DNA from: Hyperoplus lanceolatus
Lineage: Eukaryota > Chordata > Actinopteri > Uranoscopiformes > Ammodytidae
Assembly: GCA_026929865.2 (NCBI GenBank)
Contig: CM049400.1
Location: forward strand, 16,008,001-16,072,000
Reading direction: 5' to 3'
DNA: 64,000 nt
In this document: piece after piece, positions 1 to 28,000 of the stretch
Layout of the letters: every line of letters begins with the position of its first letter
How positions within the stretch are numbered: position 1 is the first letter of the stretch
Notes under the pieces: generated by a model
Seen by the model: only the letters and a program-made list of their open reading frames with translations
Told to the model about the DNA's origin: nothing
Database searches by the model: none
Position numbers and translations under genes: made by a program

Positions 1-1857
1 AGGAATAAGTGCACATCCATGATTAGGAAAGCCAAATCTGAATACTACCTTGAATTAATCTCCGACTGCTACTCTAACCCTGCACTATTTTGGAAAGCTG
101 TGAACTATAATAAGAACAATTCTAACACAGTTCCCACTCAGATCAAATTAAATGGTCACACTCTCAATGATCAAAAAGAGATTGGCTTAGCTTTTAATAA
201 ACATTTTGTAGCTGCTGGTAAACTCTTTCAGAATGGAGGATATACGCCTTCTACCACCAGTAGTAACGTACCACCTGTCTCTCAAACTCCTATTTTCAGC
301 CTTGATCTTCTTCCCACAAGTGTTGTTGTAGATGCACTCCCAAGAAGTACATGGGAGAGGACAATTTGGACCCGTTTTCAATCAAGCTTTCTACACATAT
401 AATATCAAGCAGGTCACAGTACTGTCTCTGCTGTGACTTTGGTTGTAGACAACATTGTTACAGAATTAGACAAGAAAAAGCACTGTGCAGCACTTTTTAT
501 TGATCTTTCAAAGGCCTTTGATACTGTTGACCACCATTTGCTTTTACAGAGGCTGCATGACATTGGCTTTGATCAGTCTGCATGTAGCTGGTTCAGGGAT
601 TATCTCTCTGATAGACAGCAGTCAGTTAAACTCGGAAGATACCAATCTGAGTTCTTAACTGTTACAAATGGTGTCCCACAGGGCTCAATTATAGGTCCAG
701 TTCTTTTCACAATTTATATAAATAACATTGTTTCATCGCTAAAAAACTGTCATGCCCATCTATACGCTGACGACACAGTACTGTATTGCATTTCCGATTC
801 GGTGCACCAATCTATTCAGAACCTACAAAGCTCTTTTAACACCCTGCAGGACTGTCTAGTGGACCTCAGGCTGGTTCTAAATACAGACAAAACCAAATAT
901 ATGTGTTTCTCCAGAGCAAGAACTACAACTTTTAATGATTTTAATATTTTTTACAAAGAATGGATTTTTAATTGAAAGAGTCACAGAGTACAAATATCTC
1001 GGCATCTGGTTAGATGATAAACTCACTTTTAATTTCCATATAAAAAATCTTATTTGTCGACTACGACAAAAAATTGGCTATTTTTATAGGAACAAAACCA
1101 CCTTCCCTTTATTTAGTAGGAAAAGGATTATTGAGGCAGTTTTTATGTCTGTCCTTGATTACGGTGATGTGGTTTACCGGCATGCATCTCATTCATGTCT
1201 TAAACTCCTAGACTCTGTTTTTCACTCTGCTTTAAGGTTCATCACAGGAGATGCTTATGACACACACCATTGTCTTTTATATGAAAAGGTTGGGTGGTAC
1301 TCCCTTAAAGAGAGACGTGATGCACATTGGCATATTTTTATTTACAAAGCCTTGACCGGGAAGCTTCCTCGTTATTTAACAGAAATGTTGCAAATTTCAG
1401 ATGGGCTTTATCAGACCCGCTCCGAAGACATGCTCATGCTTTATGTCCCACAAGCCCGGTCTGAGCTGGGAAAGACAGCTTTTAGCTTAAGTGCCCCCGA
1501 CTCCTGGAACAACTTACAGCAACAAATTAAACTAAATACCTTCATATCCTTTAATCAATTTAAACAAACTATCTTAAATCTGCCAAACCTACCTGTAACT
1601 GTTTTAATTAGGCTATATTGTACTTTCACCCATTTCATTTTAATTGCTGCCACTCTTCACCACTATGTAAATGTTTCAATTGTTTTTTTCTCTCTTCACC
1701 TGTTGTTGTGTATTTGATGTATTTGCATTGAATATTGTGTATGTATTGTTGTTTTTCCTTGGAATTTATTTGAACTCGACACCATTGTAAATGAGGGTCA
1801 CCCCTCAATTGGTCTCTCGAGGATAAATAAAAGTTAAATAAATAAAAAATAAAAAAT
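1..1857 (+). mobile_element. Non-LTR (LINE) retrotransposon, 5'-truncated by the window edge, jockey/CR1/L2/Rex1-like
   Basis: The stretch encodes pieces of a LINE ORF2: a linker upstream of the reverse transcriptase, the RT core and a C-terminal tail typical of fish jockey/CR1/L2/Rex1-type elements. It ends in an untranslated tail (1718-1818) and an A/T-rich terminal tract of TAAATAA-like repeats (1819-1857), the usual 3' end of target-primed elements. No LTRs are seen, and the 5' end lies outside the window. The copy is dead, with an internal deletion and a frameshift described under the ORF entry. A second fragment of the same 3' end lies in the opposite orientation at 6478-6596, so it is a dispersed family. 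The clade is uncertain without a phylogeny. Confidence 0.85.
19..1717 (+). pseudogene. Decayed LINE ORF2 (reverse transcriptase)
   Basis: Three reading-frame blocks belong to one former ORF. Block 1 (19-402) is the region before the RT. It then jumps directly to the middle of the RT, implying loss of roughly 90 codons that should hold the first RT motifs. Block 2 (433-975) has the motif DLSKAFDTVDH, the NGVPQGSIIGP motif and the catalytic YADD box at 763-774. Block 3 (935-1717) continues as the thumb and C-terminal tail in another frame, with LAPDSWNNL-like residues (here SAPDSWNNL) typical of the family's C-terminus. The frame changes inside or just after the T-rich run near 945-955, consistent with a one-base indel. 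The catalytic aspartates remain, but no functional product is possible. Confidence 0.85.
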
Positions 1858-4750: not shown

Positions 4751-5638
4751 GTAAGTACACTGTTGTGAGTTGCAAACTGGTAAAGCCCCACAGGATGATG
4801 GGAAGAAATGTGTGTGTGTATGTTCGTGTGTGGATTGGAAACACAGTGTGAATGTGTGAGTCCGACACAGGTGAGGAAAAAAACAGAGGTTAAGGGTGAG
4901 TTTTTGCATTACAGCATTTTTTCTATTTCCGTTTTTTTTGTGTCAGCAACAGAAAAGAGTAAGCAAACCGACCCCTGGCCAGGCCAGGAAAGTGCTCTGG
5001 CAGAATGAGAAAGATATTGTTTGCATACGCTGTGCACAAGCCATGCACTGTGACCTATCTCCATTCGTTCAGGTTGACTCCTGCACACTCACAGTGGACT
5101 GGAATGAAAGTAAGAGGGCAAAAAGACAAAACACGATACAAAACGTGAAAAGGTCAGGGCCGGTGACACACAGTAGGAGGTGAAGAGAAGTGGGGGGAAC
5201 ATGCCTTGATGGTTGTTCATGTTGACAGTACCGTGGTTCACACTCAGCACTTTCTGTTTGTGAGTCAGTAAACACAGTGTGCGTGTAGGCTATGCACTCG
5301 AAAGGCAGTTCAGTGACTGCAGATGGGGCCTTCGTGCTTATTGCCCTTGCAAAATGATGTGCTTTCTTTTTTTGTGTTTATGTGTGCCTGTAGTAGCTTG
5401 CGTGATAGTGTTGTCCTCTGGATTTTACTTCCTGTGGACTTTCCCTCCATCCATAGCCTACATTCTCTGTCATGGGGGAATAATATATTTTAAAAGGGAT
5501 TAGTCTTGAGGATGTTGGACTTTCCCCTCATGCAAATTTGATAGCTGTTCACAGAAGATCAAAGCTATTAATAAACTGTCCTCTACTCTGTGTGTGTCTC
5601 CGTAAAGTCCTCACATCCTCCACAATTATCACCACCAG
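4751..5638 (+). other. Intron 1 of the TRIM44-like gene
   Basis: Donor GTAAGT at 4751. The acceptor is most likely CACCACCAG at 5630-5638, with an alternative TTCACAG ending at 5554. Both acceptors keep the same frame relative to exon 1. No mobile element or other gene was recognised inside. Confidence 0.55.
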
Positions 5639-5645
5639 CCCTGCC

Positions 5646-6290
5646 ATGGACGACAAAGAGGATCCCCGGGAAGGAGCTGTGTGTTTGAAACAAGAGGAGC
5701 TGCCGCAGATGGACGGTTCGTGCGATGCTTGCGAGCCTGATGAGGCCCAACCGGCCACGCAAGTGTGCCACACCTGCAGCTTTGCCTTCTGCACTTACCA
5801 TGCCGACAGACATGGTGCCAGCACTCGTCACCGAATCATGCCTTATAACCACGAGGAAACACAAGCCAATGGACGTGGTGAGACCAGCAGAGGCAATAAT
5901 GGAGTCGGAGGTGAAGCTGAAGAAGATGCTGGCGGTGGGGGCAGGCTGGCAAATGGAATGGGCGGAGGAGATCAAGGGATGGAACTACTTGGCGCAGCGA
6001 TGGCTAATGCAGACATAAGTGGTGATGCCGCGGCAAACAAATCAGTCAGGAATGGACTGGATGGAGCAGAGGGTGCGGAAGCAGGGCAGGAGGAGGAGGC
6101 CATGGCTGCTGAGGATGCTGGGAAGAGGGACACTGTCACGGTGGAGAGACTGCGCTGCAAGGAGCACGGCCAGGAAGGCTCCCTCTACTGCAAAGCAGAC
6201 GAGAAGATCATCTGTGTGGTGTGTGCCGTGCAGGGTGAGCACCGCGGGCACGAGATCATCACCCTGCACGAGGGCTACGCCTGGCAGAAG
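5646..6290 (+). CDS. trim44: TRIM44-like coding exon (exon 2): UBP-like finger, linker, B-box
   Basis: The start at 5646 sits in a strong context (GCC before ATG, G after) about 7 nt inside the exon. 215 codons run to the donor AAG|GTGAGT at 6290/6291, phase 0. The UBP-like finger uses C26, C29, C41, C44, C49, H52, H56 and H62. The B-box type 2 ligands are all present: C171, H174, C182, D185, C190, C193, H199, H202. The linker between them is Gly/Ala/Glu-rich and includes [12 protein letters not shown]. Human TRIM44 has a long Glu/Ser-rich acidic run here, so composition differs while position is conserved. Reading past the donor to the stop at 6398 adds only intron-encoded residues. Confidence 0.88.
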
Positions 6291-7921
6291 GTGAGTCGCA
6301 TACAAATACTGGAACATTACATACCCTTTGTTTACGTTCCCGTTTACAGAGACACTAGGCTGTGGAATAGCACTAGATTTGTTTGTGAGCACACATAGTA
6401 GGGACATGAAGGGGTCATGAGGAGATATGTTTTCCAAAATCACTGAATCCACCTTTAACTATATTTAATTTAATTTTCATTTCACTTGTATTTACAATAA
6501 CGTCGTGTTCAAAACAAATTCAAAGGAAAAACAACAATACATACAAAATATTCAATGCAAATACATCAAATACACAACAACAGGTGAAGAGATATAATAT
6601 AAACCTGGGCTAAATGTAGTTGCAGACGCTTATGGACCAGAGTTTGTTTGAAAACTGGACATTATTGACTGTATGAAGTCAGTATATTGGCAGTTCTTAC
6701 CTTTGCAATGCTTTATCTGTATGCTCTGACATTGTGACCCATAACTTATGAGAAATACGAACAGGGATTCTGTTACGCCAGCCGTCGGCACAGTGACACT
6801 CACCAAGGCATGCCTGCTGCTTTCGATTGTAATTGGAAAATCGGGATCCTCAGACACAGCAGCACACACAGTGTGCAGGATTCAGCAGTTTTAAAATGTG
6901 TGTCCTATGACCCTGTCTTAAACCATAGACTGAATATAAAAGAAAACAACTAAATAAAAATGAAAATAACAGATGTACTGGAATGCATTGCACACAGGTC
7001 AGAACACTGTACTACTGAGTTTGACTACCATGGCCCGAGTGCAATGGGACACACTGCTGCGGTTTTGGGCCGATAGCCAGAAACTTGACATTTTTGGACA
7101 TGACCACATTAGATGTCAATAAGTGCCACAGCTATTTTTACATTTCACACATAATGATGAGCACATAGGGTCATATTAACATCGAATAGCAGGGTAACAT
7201 GCAGTCGGGCAGTGTAGTATTTTAAACATAACAAAGTCACATGGGTGCCCGCATGACATCATGCATAAATTAATGCAATCATACAGCTACATAAATGTTT
7301 TCTATGAAAATGGTGAAATGGAATTTATACATTATGATTATGTACGTTTGGCGCGGCGCCAATTATTGCCTCACCCTTCCTTCATTTCCTAGATGGCTTT
7401 ATGCTTGTGGTGGATTTTATAAGTCTAGGGAGTCATCAGTGGTTCACTGCTGCATTGCAGTTTGTCCAGTAAGCCCGGCTAACGCTGTGCTGGATTTTTG
7501 CACAGACACTACTGACTCAGTTCTTGATCGATGAATATAATACCATTTAGAGTCAGATGTTATCAGCACACTGAACACATTGGGACTGTGTAATTGCACA
7601 GAGGGCCAGTTAACAAGATATGATATTATCAGAAAAAACAGGAATTAGGTTTGGATTAAAAGTTTGTGCAGTCACAGGGTTTTGCTTGTGCAGCCAGAAA
7701 TAAATTGGATCCCAAAAAATCTCCGCAAGACCCTCATTTGAAAATTGCCACACAAAGCAGGCGCATTTAGCTACATGACCCTCATGGTGTGCTGACTGTA
7801 ATTTACAGCAAGTTTTGTCCTCTGCCCTCTGGCTATACATCTGAACAAAAGTAGAGCAACACACTTTGCTGGTTTACTCTTGCATCCTGTCAACATATGG
7901 ATTGATGGGAGACAAAGGGGG

Positions 7922-19000: not shown

Positions 19001-22000
19001 TAAGTCACCGCCGTCTGAAACAGGGGCTTGAGTGCTCCCTCGCGACGCTGCGCTCGACCAGGGGGAGGTTGCAGTAATGGCGGTCGCTGATGTGCTGATT
19101 GCTTTTCTAGCCAACATGTTTATCCATAGCGGCCACAAGTCCATTAAGGCCCTATTGAATGCTGATGGTCGCCCCGTTTGTTCTCATGTGTTAGTCATTG
19201 TTGGCTTAAGTAATGCGTAAAGTTATTTGGAAATATGGTCAGAGGAGGTGTGCATGTAGTTGTAGAGTTTGCGCTTATACATCAGTTTTTACTTCTCCCA
19301 GCAATGATCTACAATATCTTATTGCGTGTGTATGAATACTCAGTATATATTGAATTGAGTTGGACTGAGTTGTTGTTTGCATAATGGGATATTTAAAGCG
19401 GCTACGAGTAACATTTAAATATCTTTTAAACAGCCTCATGTTTCCTCTGATAATCATAAATTACCTTTAACAGCGAACGAGACCATTAGTGCAAAGAAAG
19501 ACGTTTTTAAATATTTTTTATTACTGCTTTTGGTCTGGTCGCACACCCAGTCCGATTTTCGGTTCGCTCGTGCAGGCTCTATGGTCACATATCCGTATTG
19601 GTCGCAGATTTCAGTGTGGCGCAGCAACGTGAATTGAGAAGCCTATCCCTCCAGGTGAGGGAAGGGGAGCGAGAGCTTTGTTTGAGACAGTTATTTGTCG
19701 TCATAATGACTGATAACGGGGCTGAACCATCAAATAAAAAATGCAATGAAGAAAAGCTAAAAGGGAGAGTGATATAGGCTACGGGCGGGACCAGGGCGTT
19801 GCCAAGCAACGTGTATACAATTTCACGAGAGTGAAACTAGACTATGGAGGACGAAACCTGCCATATGTATAAATAAATAAATTAATAAATAAATGAATAA
19901 ATACTGGAATAAATAAATAAATAAATAATTAAATACACAAATAAATACACAAATAAATAATTAAATACATGATTAAATAAATAAAAGAAGGAATAAATAA
20001 ATACATAAATAATTAAATGTCATTTATTTATTTATAGATTTATTTATTTACACATTTATTTATTTATAAATGTATTTAATTATTTATTTATGTATTTATT
20101 TGTGTATTTAATTATTTATTTATACATTTATTTATTTATGTATTTATTCCTCATTTTATTTATTTATTTGTGTATTTAATTATTTATTTATTTATTTATT
20201 CCTTATTCCTTATTTTATTTATTTGTGTATTTAATTATTTATTTATTTATTTATTCATTTATTTATTGCACATTTATTTATTTATGCATTTATTCATTTC
20301 TACATTTCCACATTTCCTCATTTATTTATTTATGCATTTCTGTGTCCATATGCTAATGAGGTAGGAGGGACTTGCCTCAGTCTCATACAGGATTGGTCAC
20401 AGGGTACGGATCTAAAGAACCAATCACAAGCCTGCGCGTTCTCTCCCCTCTGTGTACGAGCCTGAGCGCATTCACGGAGGGCAGAGAAAGCGTTGTTGCC
20501 ATGGTAGTGCGTGACAGTGGACTAGACCTAGCCAAGGACGAGGTAGCCTAACAAGTTTGCACAATGGAAGAGAAACAAACCGGTAGACAGAAGTTACCAC
20601 TGCCACCGTTACTTGCCCCTGCTCACCGTTTACAAAAGGCAAAGAAAAGAAAGCCAGAAGCTGAAAAGGCATCAAGAAAAGAGCAGTTAGGCCTACATAC
20701 AGCTCGAGGACAAACGCGAGTCAACATTGGAATCACTGTTCAATGATGGCAACAGCTGAGGAAGTTGAATGGCTTGACAAATGACGCCATGGTTGCTGTC
20801 TTTCTCTTGTTGGACAGGTAAGCCTTTGTTTCGTTTCCTGTAAAATGTGTGTTATGGCGAAGTCTAGCCAAGGAAGCTATTTATGTTGCGTTAGCCATAT
20901 TAGCCCGATGCTAACGTTAGCTCCCCAGTCGTTCTAGGCTAGTAGGCACATTACAAGCTGCATTAGCTAACGTTGCCATACTATATTATTAGTCTAATGT
21001 TATGTGGTCGTCAGCGTCTGAACATGTGTCATTTTAGTATTGGCTTTTCAAAATGTGCTGATGCAGTGTGTGTTTTTCTTTTTTTAATTATTGTTTTATA
21101 GTTATGACAACAAGGCTAATTCCTCAACACTTGAAACACCGATCGATGAGACCACCTCCTCCTCCGCCTTTGTCAAGTATTTATCCAGAGTCTCTCGGTG
21201 AGTAAAGCTTGATGTAGAAGGGAATATGTGTGCTACAATACTGTTCTATATGATGGGCAATCAATAGGCCTAAACAATGCGTGATAAATTATATAGGTAT
21301 CAAATATATGTGCAGACAGTGGGTACATGTCAGTTAGTGTATACTCTGTGTAAATGGGGGAAAAGAGAAACAAACATGCCAACATACATTTTTAACATTT
21401 TTGTAAAAGCTCCCCTATATAATGTATACACATTCTAAACCGAAATTATTCATACCCCTGGCACATTTTGACTTTAAGTTAATTTTCTGAAACCAGCAAG
21501 CTTTTTCTTGATTGGAAATGACACAGGCTTCTCCCCAAAGATAATTGTGGAAAAGTTGAGTTGAGAGTTGGAGCTCATTGCTAAAGATGAATGGGCAAAA
21601 ATACTAGTGTATACAGGGGCGCAACTACCCACTTTCTGGGGTGTATGCAGATACTTGCCAGGCCAGTTGTGCGCTGGAACGGTGCAAAATATGATAATAG
21701 TGGGAAACAGGTGAGTGTGTTGTTTGGGCGCTGACCTGCTATAATCACTACACTACCATTCAAAAACTGTGAAAACAGCAATAGTCAAAAACTTGAGGTG
21801 ACACGTTAATCTGCAGTGACAATCCGCGAGTCTCGGCCGATAATCAGTTTGCATTAATCAATACAATCGGCCATATAAACAAAGGTTGGCAAATTCCGTG
21901 TAGGCTAGGTGTAGGCTATTTATTCTTTCAACCACTTTGAAAAACTTTTTTTTTCATCCACGCAATATTTCTCCTTCTCAATCTTCCCGTTTTCTGTTTT

Positions 22001-25000
22001 GTGCCCCCGAGAGCTTTTGTTTCTGCCTCTCCATCTGTAGTTCCCTGTCACCATGAAAGCTCTCGCGCTCCAGCGGGTGCTCGAGGGGGCACTGGAGCGC
22101 CTTGTGGGGAGGAGGAGGCGAAGGAGCAGGAGGCGCCTAATCAGTGACATGCCTCTGTTATTGATCATATAATTTACACAAACGCTGTTAAATACAGAAA
22201 AATGCCGACTCCGAACAATTTTCCCCCGATCGCTTTGGCGCCCCTCTTGTGCGGCGCCCCTATGCGCCGCATATAGCGCATACCCCCTTTTTGCGCCACT
22301 GAGTGGAGACATAGGAAGCGTTTGATTGCTGTAATAGCAAATAAAGGCTTTTCTATTGATTATTGAGAAGGGTATGAATCATTTTGGACATAATTTTTTC
22401 AAAGTTTTTTCCACAATGACGCCTCTTGTACATCGTCTTATTATCTTACTATCTTTGCTTGACAGAATTTGATAACTAGTTCAACAATTTTGTATGTAAT
22501 GACTCAAACAATGAAATGAAGACTATTAGTTTTATTGGGAAGGACTATTCAGCATCCATAAGTATAGTTCATTTTGACTGACATGACATAAGCAAATGAC
22601 AATGTTATAAAACAGCAGAGAATTGTATGAAAGCAACTTATACATGTCCAAAAGCATTTGCAATTTGTTCAGAGGAAGGAGAAATTGCTACTATGATGTG
22701 CTCAAATGACTAAAGGTTGCGGAGGTTGAACTAATAGTTATGAGAATTTTCATTCTGATCTGAGAAAAGCACCAAAGCAACTGAAAGCAAAGGAATGTCT
22801 GAAGAATTTCACATGGTGATGCAAAATCAAAAACACAATGAACTGTATCATCTGTTGTCAGTGTGCTCCAAAACATGCTGGCAATACAATATCAATAGGC
22901 CTAATATAGTTAAAATTGGGAAACATTTTAATAGATGCGTTGCAGGTCTATTTAATGTTTGCCCCTAAATTTTCTGCTTGCTCCCCTAAAAATTCTGAGT
23001 TAGGGGTGCCAGTGCTCCTAGTAAAAAAGGTTAGTCTGGAGCCCTGTTGTATGATCATAAATGTTTAACTTTGCTTTGTAACACAGCACATGAAAATCCA
23101 TTTAGCTCTGGTCTAAGGAATGCCAAAGTGTAAAGATTTGTGTCCGGGTTCCACCAACCATCATGAGGTATAATATTACAGATCCAGAAGTGCTGGTCAA
23201 CCTATTATCTGAAGAACAACAATAATACTAATAATAATGGATTGGATTTTTATAGCGCTTCTCTATGCAATCAAAGTGTAAGGATAAACCACGTCATGAA
23301 GGATTTTCTCTGCAACTCTGTGTTAAACCACTAATACCGTTGTTTTTTTGTGTGTGTCTTCTGATATTCTCTCCTAAGGACAGTCACTGCCACAGCTGAT
23401 GCAGCCGCATGCAGAACCAGACCAGACCTGTCTGCGAAAACTGGACCCCTGGACAAAGTTTATGACCATGTTTATATTGAATTAAAAAAAAATATTGTCA
23501 CACAACATTTACAGAGATGATAAATGTTATGTCTTGATATCCGTAATAATAACAAATCAAAAGTCATTTGACATGTTTTATTCGAACATAATATAAAAAC
23601 AAAAGGACTTAGTATCTTCAGTTCCTCCTGGGAATACATAGAAATATAAATATATGTACCTTATCATAGCTTTTATTCCAAACACGCAAATGCATTGGGG
23701 ACATTGCACATTCTATTCCAACTCCCAATACGAAGAAACTTTTGTCAAATGTTTCTTCATGTTTACAGAAAGTGAAGAAAAAGAAATATTAAAAAAAATA
23801 GCAGTGTCTGCATTTTTCTTTACAACTCAAACATTTACTGTATCAACTGAAAAATGCTTGAAGATTTAGCTTTCCTATGAATCACTGAACTAATATTTAG
23901 TTGTATAACCTCTGTTTCTGAGCATCTGTGTTGCAGGGAGCCGACCAATTTATGGCACCTGTGAACAGGTGTTTCAGCCCAAGACGATTGGACTACATTC
24001 CACAATTCCTCTGCATTTCTTGGTTTTGCCTCAAAAACAGCATTTTTGATGTCACCACATAGGTTTTCTATTGGATTAAGGTCCAGGGATTGGGCTGGCC
24101 ACTCCATAACGTTAATCTTGTTGGTCTGGAACCAAGATCTTGTTCGCTTACTGGTGTGTTTGGGGTCGTTGACTTGTTGGAACACCCATTTCAAGGGCAT
24201 TTCCTCTTCAGCATAAGGCAACATGACCTCTTCAAGTATTTAAATGTAACCAAACTGATCCATGATCCATGGTATGCGATGAATAGACCCGACACCATAG
24301 TATGAGAAACATCCCCATAACATGATGTCTGTGCCACCATGCTTCACTGTCTTCAAAGTGTACCGTGGCTTGAATTCAGTGTTTGGGGGTCGTCTGACTA
24401 ACTATATGTTGCCTTATGCTGAAGAGGAAATGCCCTTGAAATGGGTGTTCCAACAAGTCAACAACCCCAAACACACCAGTAAGCGAACAAGATCTTGGTT
24501 CCAGACCAACAAGATTAACGTTATGGAGTGGCCAGCCCAATCCCTGGACCTTAATCCAATAGAAAACCTATGTGGTGACATCAAAAAGGCTGTTTTTGAG
24601 GCAAAACCAAGAAATGCAGAGGAATTGTGGAATGTAGTCCAATCGTCTTAGGCTGAAACACCTGTTCACAGGTGCCATAAGTTGGTCGGCTCCCTGCAAC
24701 ACAGATGCTCAGAAACAGAGGTTATACAACTAAATATTAGTTCAGTGATTCATAGGAAAGAAAAGCTAAAGCTTCAAGCATTTTTCAGTTGATACAGTAA
24801 ATGTTTGAGTTGTAAAGAAAAATGCAGACACTGCTATTTTTTTGAACAGTCTAATATTACTTTTTCTTCACTTTCTGTAAAGATGAAGAAACATTTGACA
24901 AAAGTTTCTTCATATTTGGATTTGGAATAGAATGTGCAATGTCCCCAATGCATTTGCGTGTTTGGAAATAAAAGATCTTATTAGGATTTTGATCTTTATT

Positions 25001-28000
25001 ACATTTTTTAAAAACACTGCTATTATTTTGAACACAACTGTACATCATTGTAATAAATAACTTATAAGTACAGATAAAATTAAACTTTGTTTATTGCAAC
25101 CTGTTGGGTATAAAGCCTTTGTATTGTCCATGTGGATCTGGAAAGCGGTCTCTTATTTTCTATACGCAGCAACTAGGTATGACCACTCTGTTCCCTGCTC
25201 CCAGTGCCCCATATTGCCACACAACAAATTGGCAGTATGCTGCATAGCGATATTGTTTTTTAATCTCCGCTGGGTCTGGATGGTCATCCAAAACACATCG
25301 TGTTTAGGTGCCCCTCTTGCAAAATGTATGCCTCGATGTGGGGCATCATTGCGATACAGGAGTGAGGTTGTTGCCCACAGCACTTGCGCTCCACATCTGT
25401 TGGCACTTCTCTGCAGCTCTGGCAGACGCACCAGATGGGTGTATCTGTCTTCTGAGGGCCCGATGGAGGAGAATCTGCTGATGCCAATGTTAGCCGGTCC
25501 AACATGAGGCTGGGGTCGCATGTCAAGCAGAGCTGAATTCTTGCCTGTAAAGTAATACATGATTATTATTTATTAAATAAAGTTTTGTATTGTCCTCTAA
25601 TAGGTAGGCTATTGTGTGTTCATGGTACATGGCATCTCAGTACACAAAGTTGCTGGTAAGGTTTATGTCTTATATGGGCCTACAGTCTGCTCATATGCAA
25701 TCCTTAGAGTTTTGCAAAAAAAAAACTCATCTTGTGAGCTCTGACAAGCAAAACAATGAATGATAAAAAAAGGTGTAATGTACTACACAAAATATGCATG
25801 AACGTGGGTAAACTGTGATATAAATAACATGCTGTATTGGCAATACTGCCAAACTTTTTCTTTACATTTCTGTTACCAGTCCATCTGATGTGCTAGCCTG
25901 ACTGCTGTGAGAAACACTACTAACAGTAGGCCTTATCATGTTTGTTTTAAACAGTTAGCATTATAATATTAGGTGTGTTCTTACCGGTGAATGAGACATT
26001 GTAGTTTGTCGAGAAATGGAGGAGGAGGTGGTCTCATCGATCGGTGTTTCAAGTGTTGATGAATTAGCCTTGTTGTCATAACTATAAAACAATAATTAAA
26101 AAAAGAAAAACACACACTGCTTCAGCACATTTTGAAAAGCCAATACTAAAATGACACATGTTCAGACGCTGACGACCACATAACATTAGACTAATAATAT
26201 AGTATGGCAACGTTAGCTAATGCAGCTTATAATGTGCCTACTAGCCTAGAAGGACTGGGGAGCTAACGTTAGCATCGGGCTAATATGGCTAACGCAACAT
26301 AAATAGCTTCCTTGGCTAGACTTCGCCATAACACACATTTTACAGGAAACGAAACAAAGGCTTACCTGTCCAACAAGAGAAAGACGGCAACCATGGCGTC
26401 ACTTGTCAAGCCATTCAACTTCCTCAGCTGTTGCCATCATTGAACAGTGATTCCAATGTTGACTCGCGTTTGTCCTCGAGCTGTATGTAGGCCTAACTGC
26501 TCTTTTCTTGATGCCTTTTCAGCTTCTGGCTTTCTTTTCTTTGCCTTTTGTAAACGGTGAGCAGGGGCAAGTAACGGTGGCAGTGGTAACTTCTGTCTAC
26601 CGGTTTGTTTCTCTTCCATTGTGCAAACTTGTTAGGCTACCTCGTCCTCGGCTAGGTCTAGTCCACTGTCACGCACTACCATGGCAACAACGCTTTCTCT
26701 GCCCTCCGTGAATGCGCTCAGGCTCGTACACAGAGGGGAGAGAACGCGCAGGTTTGTGATTGGTTCTTTAGATCCGTACCCTGTGACCAATCCTGTATGA
26801 GACTGAGGCAAGTCCCTCCTACCTCATTAGCATATGGACACAGAAATGCATAAATAAATAAATGAGGAAATGTAGAAATGAATAAATGCATAAATAAATA
26901 AATGTGCAAATAAATAAATGAATAAATAAATAAATAATTAAATACACAAATAAATAAACGAATAAATAAATAAATACACAAATAAATAAATAAAATAAGG
27001 AATAAATAAATAATTAAATACATGAATAAATAAATAATTAAATACACAAATAAATATATAAATAAATAATTAAATACATGTATAAATAAATAAATGTGTA
27101 AATGAATAAATCTATAAATAAATAAATGACATTTAATTATTTATGTATTTATTTATTCCCTTTTATTTATTTAATCATGTATTTAATTATTTATTTATGT
27201 ATTTATTTGTGTATTTAATTATTTATTCATTTATTTATTCATTTATTTATTTATACATATGGCAGGTTTCGTCCTCCATACTAGACTGCAGTGTTTACTC
27301 CTAAATGAATGAGCGGTTGGTACTAACACAAAGTTTGCTTTGCTTCACCATCATCAGAAAACTATTATCTGAAATAGTCATTATTTACAACAACATAAAC
27401 ACATTACCTCATCGTGATCCATACTAACTGCCGTCTCTCGTTCATTCGCTTTCTGTGAGGAGTCGGACACGTAATCTTTCAGCTCCGTGAGAGAGAGAGT
27501 AGTTAGGTGACACTGCTGCATCAACTCATTGCAATCAGATGTGTGTGGCAGTGACTGGCATTAGTTGATGCAGTGTCAAAACCACTCTCACAGAGCCGAA
27601 AAGAGTCCTCACACTTTCAACACACAGACATGCACTATATTGCTCCCTTCTCAGTTCACACTCGCGCGCCTGGCATGAGCTAGAAAACAGCTTTGCGACA
27701 GCGGGCGTCGTAAAAATACTACCGCTTTTGTCCAAAGGGGACGCAGGGGTTGACACCAAGGTTTCAAATGCACTTGCCCATAGGGCAAGTACAGGTAATG
27801 TTTTACTTGCCCGAATGTTGTGTTCACTTGCCCAAAAAAAACAAAAAAACTGTTAAACAATGATATATACAATATAGGCTAATTAAATTATACATTTTAG
27901 CGAACCGTATCTCTTAAATGCAAACACTGCTTACTTGTCTCATCCTGACCACATAAAACGCACAACAATTCATATAAGCCTATATATCATGACATCACAC

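Follow-up and report, generated by a model that had tools for sequence, protein, structure and literature searches.

A multicopy fold-back transposon with probable IS3EU-type ends and a Kolobok-type body in the genome of Hyperoplus lanceolatus

The window analysed here is a 64,000-nucleotide stretch of the Hyperoplus lanceolatus genome (G000:C6:16008001-16072000, from an 806.7-Mb genome in 527 contigs), and the subject of this report is the element with long inverted arms that spans its positions 19843-27280. This element is a real, multicopy transposon that was mobile in the fairly recent past. It is quite probably a non-autonomous DNA transposon of the IS3EU type, in fold-back form, and a composite that holds a piece of a Kolobok-type element; the IS3EU-type mobility is deduced from the 6-bp duplications and the TATGG..CCATA ends found in at least 18 loci. 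The initial annotation of this DNA had already read a mobile transposon here, which is supported in the sense of a mobile non-autonomous element.

Results

Copies, arms and target sites

When the genome was searched with the unique part of an arm (window 20360-21200), at least 18 window-family loci were found. The query gave 28 long matches at 96-100% identity, the window's own two included, and two partial ones at 95 and 97%; as the best 40 of 138 candidates were scored, the copy count is a lower bound. Ten additional places match at 86-87%, nine of them beginning at query base 51 or 52 and one at base 142. The family is variable in structure (copies and loci are referred to below by labels such as C5 or L029): C20 is a 1.6-kb form and C11b carries the left-type inner sequence on both sides, while two miniature forms, L031 (339 bp) and L032 (210 bp), have the same kind of ends and 6-bp duplications of TTTACA and CTATAG.

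The inverted arms of about 1.3 kb described initially are confirmed by comparing the window with itself. Positions 20280-21165 and 26018-26903 are inverted copies with 98% identity over 886 gap-free nucleotides, and the likeness extends to the ends of the element (95.3% over 1,271 columns, AAAT-type arrays included), whose terminus reads TATGGAGGACG. The spliced exon signals said to be common to both arms are seen again, splice-like signals being identical in the two arms when read by eye.

The duplication of 8 bp claimed in the initial annotation is in fact one of 6 bp. Both ends are available for 17 elements, of which 13 belong to the window family, two are miniature forms and two are relatives. 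Their 6-bp duplication is exact in 15 and agrees at five of six letters in the other two, C6b and the C3 relative, whereas the 8-bp reading is perfect, with eight of eight letters, in only the window copy and C5. The ACTAGACT of the annotation thus combines the 6-bp duplication with the element's terminal T/A and, on each side, one letter that matches by chance. Copies elsewhere lacking an 8-bp duplication had been named in advance as evidence against that proposal, and such copies are the rule here, since the 8-bp reading is imperfect in 15 of the 17. The ends are TATGG..CCATA in 16 of 17 elements (the left end of C7 is TATGC) and TA..TA in all 17; they were found through a terminal-inverted-repeat pattern with four mismatches allowed, so that their likeness is partly by construction, which does not apply to the duplications.

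Two empty sites are both clean, each with a single 6-mer; together with the 18 or more loci, they put the element far beyond chance. When the flanks of the window insertion are joined, they align with L003:2949-3187 (C3:7196649-7196887) over the junction, where a single CTAGAC stands (89.6% over 241 columns), and the flanks of C11b align likewise with window 1223-1464, with a single ACGTGA (86% over 244 columns). The latter match lies in a region of long interspersed nuclear element (LINE)-like open frames at window 403-1717 (RVT_1, E 1.6e-30, at 403-975).

Two junctions join the ends to a Kolobok-type body

The composite structure is revealed by two joins. IS3EU-type relatives without a Kolobok body (L037 and C5b) share the element as far as base 568 and then continue into another sequence, and 14 places among the listed matches stop at base 564-568. 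Twelve of the 16 window-family elements have this left join in both arms; C2b, C3, C13 and C20 have it in one. On the other side, the right arm meets the KolX exon within GGAGGAGGAGG, and in L029 the two halves of this right join lie apart, one matching over 49 bases and the other, on the opposite strand, over 42. The KolX join is kept over 80-91 of 91 bases in 12 of the 16 elements examined (the window copy, C1, C2, C4, C5, C6b, C6c, C7, C11, C12, C13, with 80 bases, and C21) and is incomplete or absent in C2b, C3, C11b and C20. The window element lacks both the Kolobok ends and the 181 bp with which the Kolobok-type element begins.

A single founding event before amplification is the simplest reading of these shared joins. 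A local inversion-duplication specific to this locus, which the initial annotation had set against its own proposal, is excluded because 12 of the 16 elements hold the same join.

The Kolobok-type donor and its ballast gene

The places matching at 86-87% belong to another element, as L029 and L030, the two of the ten that were read, are flanked by TTAA and have ends of their own, AGCTATACTGTACGATC..GATCGTACAGAATAGCT, of the AG..CT type. In seven of the ten places, the AGCTATACTGTACGATC-type donor end recurs as an exact copy at a distance of 181 bp from the arm match, on its outer side, and in C8 it stands 815 bp away; for the C11 and C23 places, there is no left donor end among the sites listed. 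Throughout the genome, the donor end pattern has 93 sites at up to two mismatches, against none for the reversed control pattern. Two donor-end pairs enclose open matches to P2RX7_C (PF20478), at C7:5670865 and C18:4899831, and one more donor end lies 1.1 kb from the P2RX7_C match at C19:2472906, which has one stop.

Kolobok elements make TTAA duplications and have 5'-RR..YY-3' termini, KolX is the ballast protein of their Kol0 lineage, and Kojima and Bao traced the P2X7 ballast domain to it (PMC9587614). Both copies read have the TTAA duplication and termini of that form, and the two end pairs with open P2RX7_C matches correspond to a KolX protein with a ballast domain, as in Kol0. Because of these TTAA-flanked AG..CT ends and of the ballast gene between the end pairs, the donor would be of the Kolobok type.

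The captured gene is broken cargo

The captured gene is broken cargo and not the source of mobility. In the window, the ballast exon is split between two frames and contains a TGA and a TAG; identical breaks are present in 13 of 13 copies when the alignment is read by eye, and the TAG appears in the window-family P2RX7_C matches of a Pfam search. The arm exons are proposed from splice signals, and their first ATG frame is interrupted by a TGA in both arms of the window element. Of the "captured coding module" initially described, the capture therefore stands, the content being a broken KolX/P2X7-ballast exon and a palindromic Tc1-like fragment. Likewise, the arms do duplicate a 5' gene end, as had been suggested, but not the transposon's own, since the exons are Kolobok-type and captured. 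As judged by eye, the inner palindrome has the orientation of the window copy in C2 and C3 and is flipped in 11 others (C21 being rearranged), as if recombination between the palindrome arms inverted the fragment. The coordinates are collected in Table 1.

Table 1. Positions of the features discussed, in the window unless a locus is given
Feature	Position	Strand	Remark
Left copy of the target-site duplication CTAGAC (6 bp)	19837..19842	.	single copy in empty site
Left arm: IS3EU-type terminus TATGGAGGACGAAACCTG, AAAT-type arrays, subterminal piece to 20403, Kolobok-type sequence from ~20410	19843..21165	+	
Junction of IS3EU-type end and Kolobok-type body	20400..20412	+	relatives diverge after W568; L029/L030 match only from W575
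Putative exon 1 of captured gene, left arm	20564..20817	+	first ATG frame with TGA; splice signals by eye
Putative exon 2 of captured gene, left arm	21102..21197	+	by eye
Kolobok-type segment, perhaps last exon of left transcript	23028..23662	+	
Palindromic Tc1-like fragment, arms 23670-24224 and 24406-24974	23670..24974	.	DDE_3 E 2.7e-7 for 24406-24648
KolX/P2X7 ballast (P2RX7_C) exon	25170..25545	-	frameshift and stops
KolX region matching Kolobok-type L029/L030	25372..26021	-	
Putative chimeric exon 2': arm exon 2 fused to KolX 5' exon at CTCCTCC	25985..26081	-	
Right arm, inverted copy of left arm, terminating CCATA	26018..27280	-	
Right copy of the target-site duplication CTAGAC (6 bp)	27281..27286	.	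single copy in empty site
Kolobok-type copies with TTAA-type ends	L029 537-3684; C7:5668811-5672239; C18:4898866-4902693		some copies keep open P2X7-ballast frames
rva_4 matches	C7:1862545-1864665; C9:22604757-22605281; C2:1151379-1151906		PF24764, possibly IS3EU-type transposases

The two arms of an element resemble each other

The history of the arms was examined in a tree of 27 arm rows and 592 columns, built after removal of five matches of less than 500 bases (from C1, C2 and C6c). Arm side does not group the rows better than shuffled labels do: the label "left" needs 9 changes against a shuffled mean of 8.2 (425 of 500 shuffles as low), and for the label "right" the shuffled mean is 8.4 (407 of 500 as low). 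A subfamily of 12 rows is supported at 99/96; most inner branches are weak and the bootstrap is not settled. Both arms lie on the same side of this subfamily split in all nine elements that have both arms in the tree. Five columns fully separate the subfamilies (12 versus 13 rows), each being common to left and right arms, and none separates left from right arms (12 versus 12 rows). With L029 and L030 as reference, the window's subfamily has the derived state at four of the five columns. Counted in substitutions, gaps ignored, the distance is 0.2-1.6% within elements (nine elements), 1.9% on average between elements (291 pairs) and 4-7% to L029. The arms thus seem homogenised, as their subfamily markers are common to both, and conversion between arms would be the simplest reading.

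Search for a transposase and a helper

That the element contains no transposase, as stated initially, agrees with our searches: it has no open frame of at least 180 codons, and no rva_4 or IS481-type match is listed within it (for IS481, among the 67 of 3516 candidates scored); small-exon transposase genes of other families were not searched for.

Several candidates for an autonomous form or a helper were rejected. Neither the 21-kb copy C1 nor the 13-kb copy C2 is a distinct form, both being this element lengthened by additional DNA in one arm. One arm of C1 contains a 14.4-kb insertion (C1:714971-729340, L016-L017) with inverted ends CGACGCTGAAGTTGGCA and, by eye, a 9-11-bp duplication. The ends are also those of C5b (C5:7689386-7699887) and of the C3 relative (C3:1911913-1922082), but the contents of these two are LINEs and a long terminal repeat (LTR) retroelement, and neither has an rva_4 match among those listed. 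In the same region of C5, L022/L023 (C5:7680323-7700322) contains a stretch of 4.4 kb or more that is directly duplicated at 99.5% identity and includes an IS3EU-type left end. A search with the IS481 profile NF033577 (67 of 3516 candidates scored, 12 loci cut, seven frames Pfam-scanned) gave no proven helper either: five of the seven frames carry reverse transcriptase or RNase H domains, as LTR-type integrases do, and two, L052 and L057, have integrase domains only. None of the 12 loci, of about 3.5 kb each, has a site within five mismatches of the 18-base end.

The genome contains 84 matches to Pfam rva_4 (PF24764, "Integrase core domain"), among them groups of open copies that score equally. 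A damaged rva_4 gene lies 9.3-11.4 kb downstream of the related end C7:1853226 (L037), on the same strand, and is a candidate IS3EU transposase. The 22-base right-end pattern has four matches, none of them on C7, against nine for the control pattern. Another rva_4 locus, L064, has no convincing terminal inverted repeat within 2.8 kb.

Discussion

Superfamily assignment

Complete IS3EU families are described as always having TA..TA termini and usually 6-bp duplications (PMC10045372), and a set of fungal IS3EU families as having TAYGG..CCRTA ends and 6-bp duplications (PMC12730594). A table in PMC4746887 gives 17,838 IS3EU copies for one of four teleosts, zebrafish by column order. The window family resembles these families in its termini, its ends and the length of its duplication. 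Fungal IS3EU families also bear a cargo gene (TET/JBP) known from other superfamilies too (PMC12730594); the window element differs by having no transposase found in it, arms of about 1.3 kb and a cargo that is a broken Kolobok-type piece.

The other possible affinities are less probable, to very different degrees. The initial annotation's proposal of a hAT, P or KDZ (Zisupton) element, making target duplications of 8 bp, is practically untenable: the window copy can be read with eight matching letters on both sides, but the duplication table and the two empty sites refute this length, and 6 bp together with TATGG..CCATA ends leaves that affinity unsupported. The P superfamily is characterised by an 8-bp target-site duplication. 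Zisupton also makes 8-bp duplications and hAT usually does, with exceptional hAT groups of 5, 6 or 7 bp (PMC12730594). These exceptions, and the fact that no transposase was recovered, lend some weight to another superfamily able to make 6-bp duplications, for example of the hAT6 or Dada type, with IS3EU-like ends arisen by chance; this is rather unlikely, TATGG..CCATA fitting the published TAYGG..CCRTA at all five positions. A Kolobok element with changed ends is hardly more credible than the 8-bp families. Much of the gene-like body is indeed Kolobok-type, and the window element shares with Kolobok Kol0 the KolX/P2X7-ballast exon, also held by relatives of the L029/L030 kind with TTAA and RR..YY-type ends (PMC9587614). 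However, the window element uses neither Kolobok ends nor TTAA, its duplication being of 6 bp, and the part of the donor nearest its TTAA end is missing; no Kolobok transposase was seen in L029 or L030. The reading is thus refuted for mobility by the duplications, and is true of the cargo alone.

Some of our own results weigh against the IS3EU-type assignment or the homogenisation of the arms. The window element would fit IS3EU by its ends and duplication length, and an IS3EU transposase enclosed by two matching ends was not found. The rva_4 domain is presumably the IS3EU transposase, as its Pfam name suggests; the C7 rva_4 gene is damaged and has LINE-like sequence on both sides, and a right end for this copy was not found with the 22-base pattern at up to three mismatches, which would miss a diverged end. 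As for the arms, those of C4 and of C5 are 1.4-1.5% apart, yet these two elements match side by side at 0-0.2%, with different target duplications. They would have been inserted recently and independently from one source, and they indicate that homogenisation does not act constantly.

Origin of the fold-back form

The junctions are observed, and the order of events proposed here is inferred. First, an IS3EU-type end would have become linked to internal sequence of a Kolobok-type KolX element, at a point 181 bp from the TTAA end of the latter. The resulting composite end would next have been copied as an inverted duplicate and attached to the KolX exon via the CTCCTCC microhomology; the element, now possessing two competent ends, would then have amplified. 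The arms would since have been homogenised by exchange between them, as their shared subfamily markers suggest, and the transposase would be supplied in trans by an IS3EU-like (IS3/IS481-related DDE) enzyme cleaving at the TATGG ends.

Alternatively, as the initial annotation also suggested, two separate head-on copies could have fused after losing their centres, instead of one end being duplicated by folding back. The arms are nearly identical, each with a complete terminus, as such a fusion would leave them, and the short CTCCTCC repeat at the join could be used by either route; on the other hand, no one-armed precursor, with a TATGG end and a Kolobok body, was recognised, C2b, C3 and C13, with one arm in the stretch read, not having been followed further. 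We regard the fusion as possible but doubtful, although the two routes cannot be told apart with the present data.

The fold-back duplication has parallels in other elements. In Galileo, arms lengthen by the inverted recruitment of internal sequence, and the longest are found in copies without a transposase frame (PMC3573991); Tetris is a fold-back element for which no autonomous helper is reported (PMC4079207). The window family, which shares long arms with both, inverted recruitment with the former and the lack of a helper found with the latter, looks like an event of this kind with other ends; it differs by its 6-bp duplication and by sequence recruited from another superfamily. Among papers touching on at least three of Kolobok, IS3EU, nesting and composite transposons, PMC9587614 alone was listed.

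Elsewhere in the window, a 304-codon open frame at 5484-6398 encodes a B-box zinc finger (E 4.8e-11) and may be a TRIM-like host gene.

Significance

The family may represent a new transposon lineage born from the recombination of two DNA-transposon superfamilies, in which a lone IS3EU-type end with a Kolobok-type piece was mobilised by mirror-image duplication of the composite end, the arms being kept alike by arm-to-arm gene conversion; we hold this full scenario to be evenly poised between right and wrong. If it is true, there is a fold-back lineage in the IS3EU superfamily, each arm of which carries the promoter-side end of a gene from Kolobok. The window element places a broken relative of the P2X7 ballast domain within yet another kind of transposon. 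It ties a fold-back structure to IS3EU-type ends, in a family whose similar copies allow arm-to-arm conversion to be measured. Finally, the family shows, junction by junction, a way in which a transposon without its own transposase could acquire a second functional end and multiply by means of sequence from an unrelated superfamily.

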